Shown: one piece after another, positions 4,211 to 13,910 of the stretch
How the letters are laid out: every line of letters begins with the position of its first letter
How positions within the stretch are numbered: position 1 is the first letter of the stretch
NCBI GenBank assembly: GCA_026394715.1
Contig: JAPKXR010000218.1
Coordinates: forward strand, 1 to 34,659
From: Methanomicrobiales archaeon
GTDB taxonomy: Archaea; Halobacteriota; Methanomicrobia; Methanomicrobiales; Methanospirillaceae
Direction: 5' to 3'
DNA length: 34,659 nt
The notes under the pieces: generated by a model
The model's input: only the letters and a program-made list of their open reading frames with translations
Told to the model about the DNA's origin: nothing
Databases searched by the model: none
Program-made: the position numbers and the translations under genes

Positions 4211-5374
4211 TCAACCCTTAAAGAGATTCCGGCCCTTCCCGGCCCGCTCCTTTCCTGGATGTTCCCTGACGTTTTTAACAGATAACAGTACCCTCAACGT
4301 TTCTACCAGTTTATCGTTCTCAAAAAGCCACAGGTAATCCTCCCGTAACGATTGGTTTTTCAGCACGCTGTATGCCAGGTTCACGGTAGGAGTCCGTTCG
4401 AGTTCCCGGTATTTATTCCGGATAATTATCTCCGCCTCTTTTTTATCAACCGGGAGCGGACCGGCTTTTAGCCCGAGAACTGAAAAAAAAGTTACCTTTG
4501 AAGGAGGTAGGTAATCCTTCCAGTCCTGGTTGGTATTCTGTATCGCATCAGACCTCGTAAAATATTCCTCGAGAAAACCCGGGTTCGTGAGGGCAGCCAG
4601 GATAATCTTTCCCACCATATCCGGGCCGATAAATCTCCAGTGTTCCTTTTTCTTCTCCAGGGATAAAAACTCCTCAGGGCCCATCTTCGTTGCAATTAAA
4701 CCAAGCATGATGTCATACTGCTCGCGGAAAACGGAGTCTGTCAAAAGAGAGTAAATTTTTCGGGATAACTCAGAATCCTGCAGGCAATTCGTGATAATTG
4801 CCTCAATATCGGAATCCTTTGCAAGCCCTGCAACCTCGTAGAGGTCCGGCATACCCTCAGTGTACAGGTACCAGTATTCGGCATAGATTACTTGTGACTG
4901 CACCAGTTTGTCAAGCTTTTTTGCATCGTTGATATTTTCGCTATGTATCCTGATCAGCTCATTTTTTTCAAAGGGGGGCATGCACTTTGTAAACTGCTCA
5001 GCAACCGTGAGAAACTCGTCATACTCTTTCTGGAGAGAGGGGGTACTTATGACTAAAAGCGCCTCACAAATCACCTCAGGAGGATAAATCGAGGGTCCCT
5101 TCTTATTCTGATACACCAGTTTGACCTCTTCCTGTGTCACCCCCCGGTGAACGCCAAGGACGCAATAATAGGTGGGTATACCCTCCATGAAATCATCTGC
5201 CCATTGGGGGTGCCGCTGGGTAAACTGGTAAAACCGGTCGAGATACCTGCCGACCCGGTGTTCATCCATGAAAACATTCTTAGAAACCTTCCAGTAGGGG
5301 TCATCCTCAATTGGTATACCCGGGCTTTTCGCCTGAAGATTTCCAGGACTTTTACTCTTAATTTTCCAGCCCAT
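4211..5374 (-). CDS. Multi-module J-like (HPD-lacking) co-chaperone protein
   Basis: This 387-residue soluble protein has at least three J-domain-like modules: residues 69-121 (YYCVLGV ... VTQEEVKLVY ... LQKEYDEFL), 177-224 (LYEVAGL ... LLTDSVFREQYD) and 295-352 (FFSVLGL ... YSVLKNQSLREDY). A fourth helix III/IV-like piece is near 256-271 (LTNPGFLEEYF). Each keeps the spacing of J helices I-II and the closing (L)..S/D..R..YD helix, but none has the HPD tripeptide that stimulates Hsp70 ATPase; the HPD loop is shortened or replaced. The start is firm: AAGGG lies 6 nt before the ATG, inside the 3' end of the Hsp70 gene, overlapping it by 17 nt. It is the third gene of the GrpE-Hsp70-J-like operon, so it is probably the dedicated partner of that Hsp70. 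The module assignment is by eye. Confidence 0.7.
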   Translation of the reverse strand: MGWKIKSKSPGNLQAKSPGIPIEDDPYWKVSKNVFMDEHRVGRYLDRFYQFTQRHPQWADDFMEGIPTYYCVLGVHRGVTQEEVKLVYQNKKGPSIYPPEVICEALLVISTPSLQKEYDEFLTVAEQFTKCMPPFEKNELIRIHSENINDAKKLDKLVQSQVIYAEYWYLYTEGMPDLYEVAGLAKDSDIEAIITNCLQDSELSRKIYSLLTDSVFREQYDIMLGLIATKMGPEEFLSLEKKKEHWRFIGPDMVGKIILAALTNPGFLEEYFTRSDAIQNTNQDWKDYLPPSKVTFFSVLGLKAGPLPVDKKEAEIIIRNKYRELERTPTVNLAYSVLKNQSLREDYLWLFENDKLVETLRVLLSVKNVREHPGKERAGKGRNLFKG

Positions 5375-7079
5375 TCTTTTCCCTTATCTCAATTTCGGAA
5401 TCATTCTTCAGGTTAAGACCGGAAATTCTCTCGTTGTCAGCGGGTTCAATACCATCACAGACCAGAATCTCATGTTCTCCGATGATCCCCTTTTCATGAA
5501 GCTCCCGTTTTAAGTCTAATACGGTCCCCGAAGGGTTAAGGAACATATCAAGCGTCACTTTGCCAGGCTTGTTTTTGATATCCACGTGGATACTCTCGAC
5601 ACCGACGAGTTTTTTCATCCACTTGTTCTTTTCTTTCTTTGAAAGCCTGCTCCGTGACTCCAGTTTTACAGTTCGCTGATTCCCTGAAGTTGCATCAAAT
5701 GCCGTGACATGAAGTATGCCGAACTCCTCCCCGACTTCAAACGTCACGTCAATACTATTTTGTCGCATCGGTAATGGTTCGATTGATATCCAGAACTCTC
5801 CAAGATACTCGTTGTCTTCCGCTATCTCTTCATCACCCTGGTAGACAGGTATGATGACCTCATCAGAGAAATCACCGGCATTCGTGTAATTACGTGTACG
5901 TGAAATCGGAATTTTTGTGTTCCGCTCAATAACCTTTGAGAGCGTTCCATCAAAAACTCTTACTCCCAGTGAACAGGAGACCACGTCACTGATCTCGATA
6001 TTCTTCGCCATCCTTGCGTTTTCTCTTCCGTATTCGGTGCCGGCAATGGCAGCGCCAAGTGCAACCGCTGTATAGGGATCGCCGACCAGGGGTTCTTTTC
6101 CGAAATACTCCGTGACAAATTGTCTGACCGCGGGTATGAGCGTCGTCCCTCCCACCAGCAGGATATCATCGATCTCGCTTTTTTCCAGTGATGCGTCCTT
6201 CAAAGCCTGTTCCACCGGAATTAAGGTACGCTCGATCAAGTCTTTTATCAGGCCGTTCAGCGTTTCCCGTTTCAGGACCATACTGAAAGGCGGTTTACCG
6301 GAAGCGGCAAAGGGAATGTTTATTGTCGTGCTTTCAACCGTGGATAGTGCAATCTTTGCCTCTTCGGCAGCTTCTTTCAGCGTGGCAAGAAGCGACATAT
6401 CTTTTTTCGGGTCAATCCCAAGTTGCCGGTGTAATTTTTTTGTCACATGTTCGATAATACGGGCATCAATATCGTCGCCACCCAGCCGGTGCTCACCGGT
6501 GCTTGCGTCCACGTCAAAAAAACCGGATGAGACCGAGAGGATGGATACATCAAAAGTCCCGCCCCCAAAGTCATAGACCAGCACTTTTCTGTCCCGGTCT
6601 TCCCGTATTCCATACGCGAGTGCAGCGGCAGTTGGTTCATTTATCAGCCTGAGGACATTGACTCCTGCAATCTCTGCGGCATCCAGGATGGACTGCCGCT
6701 GGCTGTCAGTATAGTTCGCCGGGACCGATACAACCGCATCAATAAACTTTTTCCCCAGGCGGAATTCCGCATCGTCGAATAGCTTTTTAAAAATTAATGC
6801 ACCGATATATTCAGGGGGGAATTTATGCCGGCCAACTTTCTTTTTGTAGTCCGTCCCCATTTCACGCTTGATTGAACTGACGACCCTGTCGGGATGTACG
6901 ACAAGGTTACGTTTAGCGGATTCCCCGACGGTGAACGTATCTTCTCCTTTGAAATGGACGATGGAGGGAGTAATCGTCTGTCCTTCGCGGTTCTCGATGA
7001 TCTTCGGATCATCCAGCAGCATGTACGCCATCTTCGAGTTCGTCGTCCCGAAGTCAATACCCAGTATGTCCCGGTCCAT
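5358..7079 (-). CDS. Hsp70-family ATPase with a C-terminal ubiquitin-like domain in place of the lid
   Basis: This 573-residue cytoplasmic chaperone ATPase has a complete nucleotide-binding domain: phosphate-1 GIDFGTTNS (7-15), the catalytic Lys equivalent K71, E148 in INEPTAA, phosphate-2 DFGGGTFD (170-177) and adenosine motif VGGTTLIP (309-316). A linker-like DVVSCSLGV leads to a beta-sandwich substrate-binding domain (about 366-475). The usual alpha-helical lid (about 130 residues) is missing. After a short basic helix the chain enters a region (496-567) matching ubiquitin in strand/helix order: an N-terminal hairpin, NPSGTV where ubiquitin has EPSDTI, the LKRELHEKG helix, ILVCDG, then LNLKNDSEIEI where ubiquitin has YNIQKESTLHL. 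It ends in GLEN without a di-glycine. A TTG start at 7091 is possible, but the ATG at 7079 fits family N-termini. The upstream gene encodes GrpE and the downstream one a J-like protein. Confidence 0.93.
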   Translation of the reverse strand: MDRDILGIDFGTTNSKMAYMLLDDPKIIENREGQTITPSIVHFKGEDTFTVGESAKRNLVVHPDRVVSSIKREMGTDYKKKVGRHKFPPEYIGALIFKKLFDDAEFRLGKKFIDAVVSVPANYTDSQRQSILDAAEIAGVNVLRLINEPTAAALAYGIREDRDRKVLVYDFGGGTFDVSILSVSSGFFDVDASTGEHRLGGDDIDARIIEHVTKKLHRQLGIDPKKDMSLLATLKEAAEEAKIALSTVESTTINIPFAASGKPPFSMVLKRETLNGLIKDLIERTLIPVEQALKDASLEKSEIDDILLVGGTTLIPAVRQFVTEYFGKEPLVGDPYTAVALGAAIAGTEYGRENARMAKNIEISDVVSCSLGVRVFDGTLSKVIERNTKIPISRTRNYTNAGDFSDEVIIPVYQGDEEIAEDNEYLGEFWISIEPLPMRQNSIDVTFEVGEEFGILHVTAFDATSGNQRTVKLESRSRLSKKEKNKWMKKLVGVESIHVDIKNKPGKVTLDMFLNPSGTVLDLKRELHEKGIIGEHEILVCDGIEPADNERISGLNLKNDSEIEIREKNGLEN

Positions 7080-7128: not shown

Positions 7129-8382
7129 TTAGGTATCTTTCTCTTTGTTATTATTTTCGTCCCGGGCCGGATCACTCCCACCAAATTTATTAACGTTCGG
7201 TCCTGGCCGGGGCACCTGATATTCAGATGCAATAAATTTCTCTCCAGGTTTATCGGTCATCTCTTCCTGGTAAGGGATGATCCCGGCTATTCCTGGATTT
7301 CGTCCAACCGATTGCAGAATAAATTCTTCTTCATTATCCATCTTCTCCACAGGTCGGTTGATCGTTTCCCCATAAGCCCGTAGGTGTTCATCCGGCACCT
7401 GGTTTTCTCTGGTTGATTGAACGATGAACTCTTTTAGCCCGGCCTCCACCTCTACGGGTCGTCCCATCGCTTCCCCCAAAGCCCGTATGGATTCATCAGG
7501 TCCCGGTTTTTCTGCAACTGACGGATAAATGAATTCCTTTACCTTGTCCATCTCACCCGCGAGTCGTCCGGTCGTTTCTCCCAAAACCCGTACGCACTCA
7601 GCGGTTTCCTGTTTCTCTGCAGCTGATTGATAAATGAATTCCTTTACCTCGTCCATCTCATCCGCGAGTCTTCCGATCGTTTCTCCCAAAACCCGTACGC
7701 ATTCAGCGGTTTCCTGTTTTTCTGCGGCTGACAAAGAGATGAATTCTTTTAAACGGTCTATCTCCTGGTGAAGTCTCATGTTGTCTTCACTGCGGGTGTG
7801 TTCAAGTCCGGCAATCTGCTGGTCAATATGGGAAAACCTGCGCTGTGCAGGAAACACCCAGTGGGTGAGATGTTCCCACACCCCGGTTTTACCTGCTTTG
7901 GTCCCTTCCCGGGGACGTTTTGAAATGATCACCTCTGCTGGCCTGATAAGAGTATCGTCGCGGAGGTACCCTTTTCTTACCACGCGGAAAACGGTGTCCT
8001 CAGGATAGCGGCTGCCATACTCGAGGCCGACCGCCATATGCAGGGTATCATCAAATTTGTCTCCCGGTGCCGGGTCAACCGGGGTAAGACCTGATACATT
8101 AAGCAGGTGGTGGTACATCACATCGATATTTTTCTGGAAGTTTTCGTTCGTATTTCTGACAATATCACATGAATTATTGTTGACTGAACCAGACATCCGG
8201 GACAACGAATCTGCAAAAACCAGCATTTTTTTTGCATGGTCAGATTGCAGTTCCTTTTTTTTGAGGGCTTCATTTCTCTGGCTGTTCTCAATATAGTCCT
8301 TGAATTCTTTCTTCAACTTGTTGTATTGTGCTTCAGACTGATCAACTTTTTTCCGTAGTGCAGTGATAGTGCCATCGTCCAT
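7129..8382 (-). CDS. GrpE-like nucleotide exchange factor with a 35-residue repeat tail
   Basis: This 417-residue protein is about twice the usual GrpE length. Residues 1-55 form a charged coiled coil like the GrpE dimerisation helix. Residues 98-157 match the GrpE beta-domain: GLTPVDP, FDDTLHMAVG, YPEDTVFRVVRKGY and LIRPAEVIISK. After a linker (158-206) come five tandem 35-residue (five-heptad) repeats at 207-381, consensus KEFI.QSAAEKQ....CVRVLGET.GRL..EMD, then a polar tail. The role is presumably nucleotide exchange on the adjacent divergent Hsp70; the repeat tail may extend the coiled coil or bind a partner. It is first in the operon, 49 nt before the Hsp70 ATG. No ribosome-binding site precedes the ATG at 8382, and a TATA-like box near 8411-8418 suggests a nearly leaderless mRNA. 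The GrpE assignment of the head is confident. Confidence 0.88.
   Translation of the reverse strand: MDDGTITALRKKVDQSEAQYNKLKKEFKDYIENSQRNEALKKKELQSDHAKKMLVFADSLSRMSGSVNNNSCDIVRNTNENFQKNIDVMYHHLLNVSGLTPVDPAPGDKFDDTLHMAVGLEYGSRYPEDTVFRVVRKGYLRDDTLIRPAEVIISKRPREGTKAGKTGVWEHLTHWVFPAQRRFSHIDQQIAGLEHTRSEDNMRLHQEIDRLKEFISLSAAEKQETAECVRVLGETIGRLADEMDEVKEFIYQSAAEKQETAECVRVLGETTGRLAGEMDKVKEFIYPSVAEKPGPDESIRALGEAMGRPVEVEAGLKEFIVQSTRENQVPDEHLRAYGETINRPVEKMDNEEEFILQSVGRNPGIAGIIPYQEEMTDKPGEKFIASEYQVPRPGPNVNKFGGSDPARDENNNKEKDT
7240..7764 (-). repeat. Five tandem 105-bp coding repeats in the grpE-like gene
   Basis: Five in-frame units of 105 nt (35 codons) encode residues 207-381. The first two units are nearly identical in protein and very similar in DNA (for example CAAAACCCGTACGCA on the plus strand in both), so that duplication is recent. 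Units 3-5 have diverged and gained prolines (GRPVE), which would weaken a continuous helix. Confidence 0.88.
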
Positions 8383-8595: not shown

Positions 8596-9723
8596 CTAAC
8601 GGTCGTTTATACACTCATCGAGGGCATAATTGCAGAGTTTGTCACAATGCCGGATATGTCGGTTTTCCCGGGGGACCTCGTGGTAGGTCACCTTCTGAAA
8701 GTTCCGCTCCAATTCCCGTATCTTACTGATAGACAGGGCAAGATGGGATTTTGTGACATGGTAACGACCAGTCAGCTGCCTGACCACCAGCTGACTATCC
8801 GAATACAGGTCTATCGAAGTACGCGAGAGGTCTTTCGCCCTCAAAAGAGCACGTTCAACGGCAGTATACTCAGCGGTATTGTTGGTCGCCCGGCCGATGA
8901 AAGCCGCATACTCACCAACGAACTGACCATTCCGGTCCAGCAGCAGAAATGCACAGGCTGCGGGACCAGGGTTTTTCCGGGCAGCCCCATCCGTATAAAT
9001 CGTTAAGCCACAAGGGTACCCTTCAGCAGGGGATTTTTCCATCCTGTCAATGACTACTCTCTTCCTGGCGCCGGTCTTCACCATAGACTGCACCATTTCC
9101 GGGCTCCGGTGATACGGCTGGATGAGGTCCTCGCCATCTTCGGTTTGATCATTGACCTTCCGGGACACTTCATGCACCTGGAGCAGGTCAAATGGATATC
9201 CGGGAAGCCCCAGGACATCAGCACCCGCCAGGTACGGGGACTCTGCATCACGTGACAGGACAACAGGCACCCGGCCGGTATCGCTGGCGGCTTCACCTTC
9301 TGCATGGGTGGTAAGGACCACAGTTTCTCTCCCCGTTTTGGTCACTCTTACCAGGCCCGCCAGGCAGAGGACTTCATGGGACCGTGGATGGACATAGAAC
9401 GGGATGTTGTATTCCCCCTCTTTCCTCCAGGTGAACCAGCCGGAAGCCGGGATCAGGCACCGCCCGGTAGAAAGAAGCGGGAGGAAAAGTGGTCGCCCGG
9501 CAAGAGTCTCTGCCCGGGCATTCAGGAGAAGATTATTCTGCCGGCCTATCTGAAAGCCCCACCTCACGTAGGAAGCGGTCAGCCGGACCCCATCCGGCCT
9601 GATGATAAGGATCTCTTGCCCGGACGAGATGTTGTACCGGGGATTGTATGAGGGGGGAATTTTCGCCTGGAACCGGGAAAATAGTTCCTTTTTAGATGCA
9701 ATAAGGGTAAATCTGCTGCACAT
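8596..9723 (-). CDS. SRAP (HMCES/YedK-like) domain fused to ribonuclease HI
   Basis: This 375-residue protein has two domains. Residues 1-205 are an SRAP domain, the family that shields abasic sites in single-stranded DNA by covalent linkage through Cys2: MCSRF at the N-terminus, NAR at 68-70, SGWFTW at 94-99 and RVPVVLS at 151-157, closing with LIQPY. Cys2 and the Asn are kept, but the active-site Glu expected in the GFYEW motif is Thr98, and the His of IHDRMP is Thr149 by alignment. Residues 238-375 are an RNase HI domain with intact acidic residues D245 (YTDGA), E285 (NTAEY), D309 (YSDSQ) and D361 (HCDKL), so it should cleave RNA in RNA:DNA hybrids. RNase HI is normally a separate protein of about 130-150 residues. 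The start MCSRF is required, because Cys2 must be exposed after Met removal. Confidence 0.9.
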   Translation of the reverse strand: MCSRFTLIASKKELFSRFQAKIPPSYNPRYNISSGQEILIIRPDGVRLTASYVRWGFQIGRQNNLLLNARAETLAGRPLFLPLLSTGRCLIPASGWFTWRKEGEYNIPFYVHPRSHEVLCLAGLVRVTKTGRETVVLTTHAEGEAASDTGRVPVVLSRDAESPYLAGADVLGLPGYPFDLLQVHEVSRKVNDQTEDGEDLIQPYHRSPEMVQSMVKTGARKRVVIDRMEKSPAEGYPCGLTIYTDGAARKNPGPAACAFLLLDRNGQFVGEYAAFIGRATNNTAEYTAVERALLRAKDLSRTSIDLYSDSQLVVRQLTGRYHVTKSHLALSISKIRELERNFQKVTYHEVPRENRHIRHCDKLCNYALDECINDR

Positions 9724-10202: not shown

Positions 10203-11111
10203 TCACTGCACCCCGCCATTACCAGGCAGGTCGGGACCACGGGCCCCTCGTACCCATGTATGTTCGTACCCTTTCCTCTCCATTACATTTCCATCAAGCA
10301 GTACACAATGGTCTGGAATTACAGACCCGATAACAGAATAATGAAAGCCTGGTGGTGCTACCCAGTCATGGGGGACCGTGAATAATAACTCATAGTCTCC
10401 CCCGCCATACAAGGCCAGTGTGATTGCTTCATCTGCCGGGACTCCGGCGGGGGCTGGTATTTTTTCCCGGTCAATCGAGTACCCGCAGGAATTCGCCTCG
10501 AGCAGGTCATAGAGCGAGATAGCGAGCCCGTCGCTGATGTCCATCATCGAGGTGGCACCCGTCCTGCCAAGGACCTCACCTTCACGGACCCTTGCCCGTG
10601 GCTCCATCAGCGCTTTGTCAAACTGGTGGTACCCGTTGAGTGCTGCCTGGGCACACCCAGGGACCCCGGTCACGCAGACCAGGTCCCCGGCCCGGGCACC
10701 GGAACGCCGGACAATATGGTCCGGGGCTACCATTCCAATACCACTACTGACGATCGTCAGTTCCGTGTGGTGGTCGATGTCGCCACCGGCAATGTAACCA
10801 CCAGCCTCCAGGCAGCAGTCCCTGGCACCCCTGAGTATTTCTCCGAGCCGTGACGGGTCATCAAGCCCCACTGCTAAAAGGAGGACCGCCGGGGTCGCAC
10901 CCATGGACGCAATATCAGAGAGCGTTACCGCAGCACTCATCCATCCGATCTGCCAGTCTGTTATCCCTGCAGGAAAATCTGTTGTTTCGTGGAGCATGTC
11001 CGTCGTGGCAACAAGGAACTGTTCACCACAGGGAATTACGGCACAATCATCGAGACAGTGCTCCCTGCCAATAATTGCATACACTTCCTGTAACAGGGCC
11101 CGTTCATCCAC
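10203..11111 (-). CDS. thiL: Thiamine-monophosphate kinase
   Basis: ThiL phosphorylates thiamine monophosphate with ATP to thiamine pyrophosphate, the active cofactor. The 302-residue protein shows the family pattern: DDCAVI near the N-terminus, TTDMLHETTDF, the long glycine-rich/aliphatic helix LSDIASMGATPAVLLLAVGL, GGDIDHH (metal/phosphate binding; usually GGDT), MDISDGL and GGDYELLFTVP. Length is normal for the family. The start codon overlaps the end of the DUF460 gene by 8 nt, so translation is probably coupled. It is the last gene of a RIO2-DUF460-thiL operon and is followed by a candidate terminator hairpin. Confidence 0.95.
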   Translation of the reverse strand: MDERALLQEVYAIIGREHCLDDCAVIPCGEQFLVATTDMLHETTDFPAGITDWQIGWMSAAVTLSDIASMGATPAVLLLAVGLDDPSRLGEILRGARDCCLEAGGYIAGGDIDHHTELTIVSSGIGMVAPDHIVRRSGARAGDLVCVTGVPGCAQAALNGYHQFDKALMEPRARVREGEVLGRTGATSMMDISDGLAISLYDLLEANSCGYSIDREKIPAPAGVPADEAITLALYGGGDYELLFTVPHDWVAPPGFHYSVIGSVIPDHCVLLDGNVMERKGYEHTWVRGARGPDLPGNGGVQ

Positions 11112-13068
11112 TCTTCTTCATCTCCTTTCCCCGTGCAGTCTGGTAATCCCGGAAGATCCCCTCGATACGCCTCGCATTCTGCTCATTCTCATAGTCCCGA
11201 TGCTTCTCCTGCCACTGTTTCAACGAGGTTTCAAAGGGGATTTTTTCAGCACTTCCAATCTTTCCCCGGATATGAATGGGAATTCCTCCACCGTCAAGAA
11301 GTGGAATATGCTGTTCCATGCAGGCCTCCGAAAGCTGGGGGTCCGCGTGCGATGTGAGGCCCGGACCCGTGATCACTGCTTTGATACCCATCCCACCGAT
11401 ATCCCGGACCACGCTCCTTCCCCACCCGTCAATCCGGAACACATACAGGATGTCCCCCTCCCGGACACCTGGGTCATCTGATAATGCCCTGACCGCGTCC
11501 TTTGTAAAAGCGCCAAGCATCTTGACCGGTACCAGATCAGGACGGCCTGACAGCTCGTCAATCCGGTCCTGCCGTTCAATTTTCTTTTTTAAGTTCAGGC
11601 TCGAACGCTCTTCACGCCGGAGCCTCTTTTTCAGCGTCTGTATCGTTAAGTCCCTTTTTACAATTTCTGCATCTTTTGTGATATCTTTCTCATGTATTGA
11701 CCGAATCTTCCGGATCCGGGACTGGAACCTGACGATCTCATGCTCTTTCCCCCGGACCTCCTCCTGCAACTCCTGTACATACGTGCGCAGACGCTTTACC
11801 ATCCCATCGAGGACCCTGACCCGGTCATCAGATTTCCTGTCGGCCGTAACAATCGGTAGTTCAGTTTCCGAAGGGGGGATGACAACGTTCAGTTCACCGA
11901 CCACCTGCTCCAGGGAGTGCCCGCGGATCATGCCTGCCCTGACCTCGTCCAGGTCCTGCCCGGGAGGTACACGTTTAAGGATATGCTGAAATTTGTGGTT
12001 ATAGTGCCGGTATGCTTCAAGGGCCGCGGATAACGCATCCCGTTCGTGATCGTTCATGTACTTGAACGGTTTCGTATACTCCAGTTTCACATCCACGCTC
12101 ACATCCAGGCGTGGTGCATAGGCGACCGCATTGAATGCACGCCTGACCTTCTCGACAGAAAACGGCATATCACGGACATCAGTCGCCACCACAACGGGTT
12201 TTCCAACCTTGCAAAGCGCTTCAATGACATCAGACAGGGAGGTCTGGCGGGAACTGCTCAGGTGAAGCAGGTTCCCCTCAAGGTCCAATGCAGCAATAGC
12301 GGTAGTTGTCCCGGGGTCCATCCCGACAATAATAAATTTCGGCCGGACCGAGAGGGGCCGGAACATGATCCGGTCCAGGCGTCTCCCGCTTATCCGGACC
12401 TGGACATCTGCACCCCGGTAGGTCGATACCGGTACCTGGTCACGCGGGGCAAATACCCGAAAAGAGACTTTGCTGCACCCGCCAAATGCCTTTGTTTCCT
12501 TTTTTTCGTACTTCAGGCCCGACGCCACAAGGTCCATTTCGATCTCCCGGGACCGTTGCAGGACCCCGCCATGGATCTTTCGCACGTACCGGTTCTGGCT
12601 CCACCCGCCTTTCCCAGGGGACCGGTTACGGGTTACCGTCACATCAGAACTGTTTTCAAAGGCAATTACTTCGGCCCCTGCCCCAAGAGACGCCACCCTC
12701 GCGATCGTGCGGGCCTCGTCAAAGGGGTCAAGCCGGTTAAAACGGATATTGTACCGGCTGGCAACTTTGATGAGAGACTCACGCCGGTCCCCGCCCGTCA
12801 CCTGGACAAGGCGTGTGGCAGGAGGCAGGGACTGCATAAATGCGAATAGTTCGTGCTGGTCCGTGGAGATCTCCTGGAGGCTGTCCACGGCAAGGATATC
12901 CGGCTGCTCCAGGGATAGCATCCGAAAGAGCCGCAGGGACGAGACCCCGTCCTCGGAGAGGACCTGGGCTCCCTGAAGCCGTACCAGGGCATACAATGGC
13001 CGCCGGGACTTTGACCTGACTGAGCCACGGATAATGTCAATCCCGAATACCTTCAGCTGGTCACGCAT
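11104..13068 (-). CDS. DUF460 family protein (archaeal RNase H-like fold plus coiled coil)
   Basis: This 654-residue protein belongs to the archaeal DUF460 family. Around residue 245 a strand IIVGMDPGTTTAIAAL, followed by VVVATDV and then HERDALSAAL, gives the three acidic positions of an RNase H/RuvC-like fold, so nuclease activity on nucleic acid is possible but unproven here. Residues of about 410-500 are a long, highly charged coiled coil (KRLRTYVQELQEEV, KKRLRREERSS). The C-terminal part (about 510-630) is a separate alpha/beta domain with GWGRSVVRDIGGMGI and LLDGGGIPI. It lies between RIO2 and thiL with overlaps on both sides (16 and 8 nt). RIO2's role in 40S/30S maturation makes an RNA-related job attractive, but that is inference. 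Confidence 0.88.
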   Translation of the reverse strand: MRDQLKVFGIDIIRGSVRSKSRRPLYALVRLQGAQVLSEDGVSSLRLFRMLSLEQPDILAVDSLQEISTDQHELFAFMQSLPPATRLVQVTGGDRRESLIKVASRYNIRFNRLDPFDEARTIARVASLGAGAEVIAFENSSDVTVTRNRSPGKGGWSQNRYVRKIHGGVLQRSREIEMDLVASGLKYEKKETKAFGGCSKVSFRVFAPRDQVPVSTYRGADVQVRISGRRLDRIMFRPLSVRPKFIIVGMDPGTTTAIAALDLEGNLLHLSSSRQTSLSDVIEALCKVGKPVVVATDVRDMPFSVEKVRRAFNAVAYAPRLDVSVDVKLEYTKPFKYMNDHERDALSAALEAYRHYNHKFQHILKRVPPGQDLDEVRAGMIRGHSLEQVVGELNVVIPPSETELPIVTADRKSDDRVRVLDGMVKRLRTYVQELQEEVRGKEHEIVRFQSRIRKIRSIHEKDITKDAEIVKRDLTIQTLKKRLRREERSSLNLKKKIERQDRIDELSGRPDLVPVKMLGAFTKDAVRALSDDPGVREGDILYVFRIDGWGRSVVRDIGGMGIKAVITGPGLTSHADPQLSEACMEQHIPLLDGGGIPIHIRGKIGSAEKIPFETSLKQWQEKHRDYENEQNARRIEGIFRDYQTARGKEMKKSG

Positions 13069-13910
13069 CGTAACGTGTCCTCGATATCGTATGACAACTG
13101 GTACTTCCGTGAGAAGTAGGTGAGGATATTATGGAGGTCCCGCCGGAGGATCGTATCGGCATTGGGGTGATCCGTCTCCATCCACTGCGGCCAGTCGATC
13201 AGGGTACAGCCACGTTCATTGACCATAATATTGAATTCAGAAAAATCAGCGTGAATTACCCCCAGATTGTACGCCTTCCTGACCTCCCCGATTATTTCAT
13301 CAAGGAATTCCTTCGGCTCTTCAAGCCTTGCGTTATTGAGATTCACACCCGGAATGTACTCCATCACCACAATATGCCGGTTCTGATCGATCGGGAGCGG
13401 TACCTTTACACCCGGGTGAAGGGTCTTAAGGGCTAGAAATTCCCGTTCTGCGGACTGCCGCGAAGTAAAAATCCATGGTGAATGGGTCTGCCCTGGTTTA
13501 TATTCCCGGTTAAGGCGCACCGACTGGAAAGACCGCTGACCTACATGATGGAGCTTGAGTGCCACACACCCGAGGCCAAGCCCTTCATACACTACCGACT
13601 CCTTGCCAACCCCGATCATGCTCCCCAGTGCCTGGATTGTGCCAATTTTCGTGAGGGTCCGGAGCGCAAGCGTATCATATCCCAAAAAAACCAGTGAGTA
13701 CCCATCGTATGGGACGGCGTTATACCTCACCATCCCTTTCTCCATCAACCGGCTGATACGAAACGATACCTCGGATTCCGCCAGACCTACGGCCCGTACC
13801 AGTACTTCAAGCGGGACCCACTCGTAGTTCCTCATGAGCCGTTCAAGCGCCATTAGTATATCTACCTCGTACTTATGGAGCGTCCTGATATTGTTCCCGG
13901 AAATTGCCAT
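13053..13910 (-). CDS. rio2: RIO2-family serine/threonine protein kinase/ATPase
   Basis: This 285-residue atypical kinase is involved, in archaea and eukaryotes, in small ribosomal subunit maturation. Residues 1-80 form the winged-helix domain that distinguishes RIO2 from RIO1 (LEVLVRAVGLAESEVSFRISRL). The kinase domain follows: GVGKESVVY (100-108) as the flexible phosphate loop, ALKLH with K119, hinge VMEYIPG, catalytic HADFSEFNIMV (D222, N227) and metal-binding LIDWPQ (D239). All key residues are intact. It is the first gene of the RIO2-DUF460-thiL operon; the next gene starts inside its 3' end. It is divergent, across 52 bp, from the TtuA-like gene at 13963. Confidence 0.96.
   Translation of the reverse strand: MAISGNNIRTLHKYEVDILMALERLMRNYEWVPLEVLVRAVGLAESEVSFRISRLMEKGMVRYNAVPYDGYSLVFLGYDTLALRTLTKIGTIQALGSMIGVGKESVVYEGLGLGCVALKLHHVGQRSFQSVRLNREYKPGQTHSPWIFTSRQSAEREFLALKTLHPGVKVPLPIDQNRHIVVMEYIPGVNLNNARLEEPKEFLDEIIGEVRKAYNLGVIHADFSEFNIMVNERGCTLIDWPQWMETDHPNADTILRRDLHNILTYFSRKYQLSYDIEDTLRCVTS

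Follow-up and report, generated by a model that had tools for sequence, protein, structure and literature searches.

A ubiquitin-like domain predicted in place of the helical lid bundle of an archaeal Hsp70 encoded between GrpE-like and HPD-less J-like partners

The analysed window, i.e. the whole stretch of DNA under study, is the 34,659-nt contig JAPKXR010000218.1 of assembly GCA_026394715.1 from a Methanomicrobiales archaeon (Methanospirillaceae). Its minus strand contains three neighbouring genes for a GrpE-like protein, an Hsp70 with a ubiquitin-like domain, referred to as Hsp70-Ubl, and a J-like protein, with the following features:

4211..5374, minus strand: J-like protein (P0002), 387 aa; J-domain-like repeats at residues 64-128, 172-226 and 291-352; no HPD motif
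5361..7079, minus strand: Hsp70-Ubl, ORF of 573 aa; stop codon at 5358-5360
Residues 5-475 of Hsp70-Ubl: NBD and substrate-binding beta-sandwich
5601..5636, minus strand: retained lid helix A of Hsp70-Ubl, residues 482-493, within the SRLSKKEKNKWMKK region (AF2 model)
5379..5594, minus strand: predicted ubiquitin-like beta-grasp domain (Ubl) of Hsp70-Ubl, residues 496-567 (profile, Pfam, AF2 and Foldseek)
7129..8382, minus strand: GrpE-like protein (P0003), 417 aa; GrpE domain at residues 5-155 and a repeat-containing C-terminal extension

Further along the same strand, a 375-aa ORF at 8596-9723 represents an unusual fusion of an SRAP (HMCES/YedK) domain (E = 4.5e-36) with an RNase H-like domain (RVT_3, 8.4e-18; RNase H, 1.1e-11), and at 11104-13910 a DUF460 protein (654 aa) adjoins a Rio2-type kinase (285 aa), the two frames slightly overlapping.

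The Pfam HSP70 profile (PF00012) matches residues 5-490 of Hsp70-Ubl with E = 3.5e-142, and the protein is considered to be devoid of a full lid because this match, beginning at profile position 1, ends at position 513 of 599. In the 14 genomes containing both kinds of Hsp70, the corresponding end lies at positions 512-532 in the Ubl-Hsp70s versus 593-599 in the canonical DnaKs. Helix A (residues 482-493) is the best-conserved stretch of the tail in the alignment of relatives, which also revealed a short and fixed linker, a long disordered spacer being absent. The Ubl stands in for the rest of the lid bundle. The original prediction had placed a Ubl at 5379-5594 (residues 496-567) in exchange for the entire lid; its mapping onto the 573-aa ORF (5361-7079, minus strand) is exact, and the replacement holds for the missing helical bundle and the presence of the Ubl but not for helix A, which is kept. 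Residues equivalent to K70, E171 and D201 of the DnaK ATP site are retained in 32/32, 35/35 and 35/35 readable members, respectively. Judged from its sequence, Hsp70-Ubl is an Hsp70 that combines ATP binding and a peptide-binding beta-sandwich with a built-in Ubl, the latter standing where the helical lid bundle has been lost.

Taken alone, the tail of the window's protein matches the Pfam ubiquitin profile colinearly (3-67 of 72) with E = 0.026, under the curated cut-off, an uncertainty which was resolved by adding relatives. PF00240 is matched by 21 of 26 Hsp70-Ubl tails (E up to 1, best 5.8e-7), and the SUMO-like Rad60-SLD family of Pfam by nine of them. A profile of four tail sequences recovered single ubiquitin chains among PDB sequences with E-values of about 1e-4, and nearly all of the 60 matches listed are ubiquitin or engineered ubiquitin; the far lower E-values in this search belong to tandem polyubiquitin, whose scores are summed over the repeats. 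In a comparison with the 26-row family profile, restricted to its Ubl part, ubiquitin itself scored 25.9 bits and the top of 5000 shuffled ubiquitins 12.4 bits, and the Hsp70-Ubl tail can be aligned to ubiquitin nearly without gaps past the central helix. An AF2 model of moderate confidence, calculated for the tail only from the 26-row alignment (mean pLDDT 72.6, about 80-85 over most of the Ubl), displays helix 482-493 followed by a strand-strand-helix-strand-strand topology. A Foldseek search of the PDB with this model ranked highest SUMO and variants of ubiquitin, together with the ubiquitins of Caldiarchaeum and Bacteroides fragilis, at E-values from 3e-6 to 3e-5 and with TM by target mainly in the range 0.7-0.85. 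Profile comparison and the predicted structure thereby confirm residues 496-567 as a ubiquitin-like beta-grasp domain, as had been anticipated from the order of strands and helix and from local resemblance to ubiquitin.

None of the 35 Hsp70-Ubl members ends in Gly-Gly, which supports the earlier view of the Ubl as a built-in and non-conjugable module instead of a conjugated modifier. The L8-I44-V70 receptor patch of ubiquitin is altered: position 8 is variable, I44 is mostly replaced by Phe or Val and V70 by Arg (22/26 Ubls), and H68 by Glu (19/26). The Ubl is under purifying selection with dN/dS values of 0.08-0.61 in seven pairs, all below 1, compared to 0.05-0.17 for the Hsp70 body; the Ubl is thus the looser part in most pairs. 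A ubiquitin-family search in the window's own genome detected no other ubiquitin-like gene and also missed Hsp70-Ubl itself, whose single sequence is sub-threshold.

The C-terminus of Hsp70-Ubl is not a one-off, as about 35 archaeal relatives from several orders were found, all equipped with the Ubl. Their hosts comprise Methanoregula, Methanospirillum, other Methanomicrobiales, Candidatus Methanoperedens, Methanophagales (ANME-1), ANME-2 and Methanosarcinales. Searches with the tail yielded three more copies in two genomes of the window's own family and nine positive genomes among 232 of its own order, including the window's own. The phylum scan gave matches in 25/393 genomes, one of them spurious, and thus 24/393 genuine carriers; as the scan reaches near relatives, the spread beyond these archaea is a lower bound. 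A species-level genome collection contained 24 Hsp70-Ubl loci. The spurious match (G440) is weak and consists of 33 residues with a stop, with no Hsp70, J-like or GrpE-like gene there. A locus in a Nitrosotalea MAG (L022) was set aside as a probable mis-binning, its contig being syntenic with ANME-1-like loci and its protein nested among theirs. The window's genus is not uniformly positive, three other genomes (two of them at least 96% complete) being without Hsp70-Ubl, and searches of viral contigs and plasmids found no relative and no match, respectively. Since the members include one from a closed genome belonging to the genus of Methanospirillum hungatei, a culturable host may exist. One genome (G012) contains two complete GrpE-like/Hsp70-Ubl/J-like operons on separate contigs (L018, L019). 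A different lid-less Hsp70-like protein of 539 aa, which ends after the beta-sandwich, is encoded directly downstream of a WD40-repeat-looking ORF (L136 1379-2995) in a genome without Hsp70-Ubl (G014).

In a tree based on the NBD and the beta-sandwich, the 35 Hsp70-Ubls form one clade apart from 15 canonical DnaKs, the separating branch having an SH-aLRT value of 100. The window's own genome also encodes a canonical GrpE-DnaK-DnaJ cluster whose DnaJ carries the HPD motif, and a full-length ordinary DnaK is present in 14/14 Hsp70-Ubl genomes tested. Hsp70-Ubl is a second chaperone system and not a replacement of the ordinary DnaK.

In the loci read, the genes are arranged in the order GrpE-like, Hsp70-Ubl, J-like, a short overlap of a few bases between the Hsp70-Ubl stop and the start of the J-like gene being usual; the original prediction had not mentioned these two dedicated partner genes. 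An overlap of the J-like gene start with the Hsp70-Ubl gene end is also seen in the window. The Hsp70-Ubl and J-like genes adjoin wherever the contig extends far enough, and even the deeply divergent ANME-1 clade has the GrpE-like gene upstream. In P0003, the GrpE domain was identified with E = 1.4e-27 (residues 5-155, profile positions 19-165 of 165), while its C-terminal extension, the length of which varies strongly across relatives, contains 2.8 copies of a 105-bp (35-aa) in-frame tandem repeat that are 84% alike (window 7458-7751). The Pfam DnaJ profile matches the J-like protein in 23/23 members (best 7e-13) and P0002 itself with 2.4e-4, which is below the cut-off. Its three J-like stretches are mutually similar (hhalign probabilities 97, 93 and 94), the J assignment of the second and third repeats coming from profile comparison only. 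The HPD motif is absent from the J-like protein in all 23 members; a lone 'HPD' at a further locus (L115) lies outside the J-like loop and is not a J-type HPD. The model of the J-like protein is all-helical (pLDDT 85), and its fold search returned no match with E < 2; the best named matches include J-domains, with PDB 9dvi among the weak J-domain ones, and the J-domain identity rests on the Pfam and profile matches and not on this search. Strong J-like matches (E < 1e-30) occur in 25 of the 393 genomes, including all 24 with a genuine Hsp70-Ubl. The sole genome without Hsp70-Ubl among them (G478) is 64% complete, and no Hsp70 or GrpE-like gene adjoins its triple J-like gene (L132 1988-3082). 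Because J-like protein and Hsp70-Ubl co-occur in 24 genomes and share an operon, we consider the GrpE-like, Hsp70-Ubl and J-like proteins as one system; given the shared operon and the relatedness of the genomes, the co-occurrence supports a shared system and not a contact between Ubl and J-like protein.

The interdomain linker reads (N/P)(I/V)(E/D)ISD in 35/35 Hsp70-Ubls versus (D/E)-I-V-L-L-D in 15/15 canonical DnaKs, with a core of E-I-S-D in 34 and D-I-S-D in one of the 35 compared to V-L-L-D in all 15. At the position aligned with the DnaK latch arginine, Arg is found in 15/15 canonical sequences versus 1/35 Hsp70-Ubls. The roles given to the latch and linker residues are those known for DnaK. 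As read from the alignments, three parts of the J-driven lid-closing cycle, linker, latch and HPD, are altered jointly and consistently. The HPD motif is needed for the stimulation of ATPase activity by J-proteins, and HPD-less J-like proteins such as Pam16 are inactive in this respect and act through complexes (PMC13254874). The alterations of linker, latch and HPD, combined with the loss of the lid, suggest that Hsp70-Ubl does not use the usual J-driven lid-closing cycle.

On this basis we tentatively propose, with a probability of roughly 0.4, that, within a specialised Hsp70 complex operating without the HPD-linker-lid cycle, the Ubl serves as a fixed docking module. Equally tentatively, the operon would encode a new type of Hsp70 machine, seen so far only in methanogenic and methanotrophic archaea, with the Ubl as a permanent docking part, the triple J-like protein as a scaffold and the GrpE-like protein as the exchange factor, the HPD-linker-lid cycle having been abandoned. 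In this scenario, Hsp70-Ubl would serve as the Hsp70 in a second, dedicated chaperone machine, which skips the usual trap-and-release folding cycle and forms a binding complex switched by nucleotide and reset by GrpE. The surface of the Ubl might permanently serve for docking, the J-like protein of the operon being the most likely partner, and the result would be a specialised holder or assembly factor with a narrow client set. A precedent for chaperone docking via a Ubl is the binding of SGTA to the UBL of UBL4A (PMC7463752). Against such a docking machine, the canonical HPD-containing DnaJ of the same cell could still drive Hsp70-Ubl.

A close rival, which we consider possible albeit doubtful, is a compact replacement lid acting in cis, whereby the Ubl would fold over the peptide groove or the NBD and gate access without any outside partner. 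The position of the Ubl directly after helix A, in the place of the DnaK lid bundle, and the short fixed linker without a long disordered spacer fit this idea, and ubiquitin-like proteins are reported to bind the NBD of the Hsp70-like Stch. However, the unconserved latch arginine column implies that such a lid would require a different contact, and most pairs show faster evolution of the Ubl than of the body. This lower conservation relative to the NBD, combined with the sub-cut-off Pfam score of the lone window tail, might also be taken to indicate a degenerate remnant or a chance beta-grasp-like tail without function, but the roughly 35 members, from several archaeal orders, all retain the Ubl, its dN/dS is below 1 in seven of seven pairs and shuffled sequences never approach the ubiquitin score, which renders this very improbable.

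Delivery of clients or of the whole chaperone to a PAN-20S proteasome or a SAMP-type system, in the manner of BAG-1 or Rad23 in eukaryotes, appears unlikely; the original prediction had envisaged that clients may be handed to a PAN-proteasome or a SAMP-type system. The own genome does encode 20S, PAN-like and ThiS-type proteins, but such genes are general in archaea and have no link to the Hsp70-Ubl operon, in the vicinity of which no proteasome gene was noticed by eye in the loci read; moreover, proteasomes are general among archaea, in contrast to the patchy occurrence of Hsp70-Ubl. The receptor patch is unconserved and carries E68 and R70, and the lack of Gly-Gly likewise argues against this function. 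To our knowledge, 19S subunits are absent from archaea. Ubl domains of eukaryotic Hsp70 co-factors bind the 26S proteasome, but the Ubl receptors named for it are 19S subunits (PMC7463752). A sulfur carrier of the ThiS/MoaD/SAMP kind, using the ubiquitin fold for sulfur transfer, is the least credible reading: the beta-grasp fold is common to both and ThiS-type proteins exist in the genome, but ubiquitin and SUMO, not ThiS or MoaD, are among the top matches listed in both sequence and fold searches, and we regard a carrier role as refuted because Gly-Gly is missing from all 35 members.

Within the open-access literature, we found no report of a Ubl fused to an Hsp70, consistent with the initial impression that no archaeal Hsp70 of such layout had been described, and a survey of archaeal DnaKs (PMC3564930) contains no mention of ubiquitin. 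DnaK, including that of the own genome, resembles Hsp70-Ubl in the NBD, the beta-sandwich, the ATP-site residues and a GrpE-like partner gene, whereas Hsp70-Ubl differs by the Ubl in place of the lid bundle, the (N/P)(I/V)(E/D)ISD linker, the lost latch arginine and its separate clade. For lid-lacking or truncated Hsp70s such as human STCH/HSPA13, yeast Ssz1 and plant Hsp70T (see also PMC10687569) we know of no gain of a Ubl and of no operon partners, unlike Hsp70-Ubl. They share with it the loss of the C-terminal lid or tail and a presumably altered cycle. In BAG-1, BAG-6 and UBL4A a Ubl is likewise tied to the Hsp70 network (PMC7463752). There, the Ubl resides on a co-factor and addresses eukaryotic 19S receptors, whereas the archaeal Ubl is part of the Hsp70 itself. 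Thermus DnaK retains its lid, and DafA is unrelated to the Ubl. The stable Thermus DnaK-DnaJ-DafA complex (PDB 9dvi) offers a parallel in that an additional assembly component is a stable part of an Hsp70 system. The J-like protein of the operon corresponds to Pam16-type proteins in being J-domain-like without an HPD motif (PMC13254874), but is archaeal, contains three J-like repeats per chain and is encoded adjacent to its own Hsp70. The Hsp70 layout of two domains and a helical lid is regarded as fixed, and a Ubl on an archaeal Hsp70 itself appears to be undescribed. Hsp70-Ubl brings together, without conjugation, the Hsp70 network and the ubiquitin fold in a prokaryote, and because lid, latch, linker and the HPD motif of the partner have changed together, it amounts to a natural experiment on which elements of its cycle an Hsp70 can do without.
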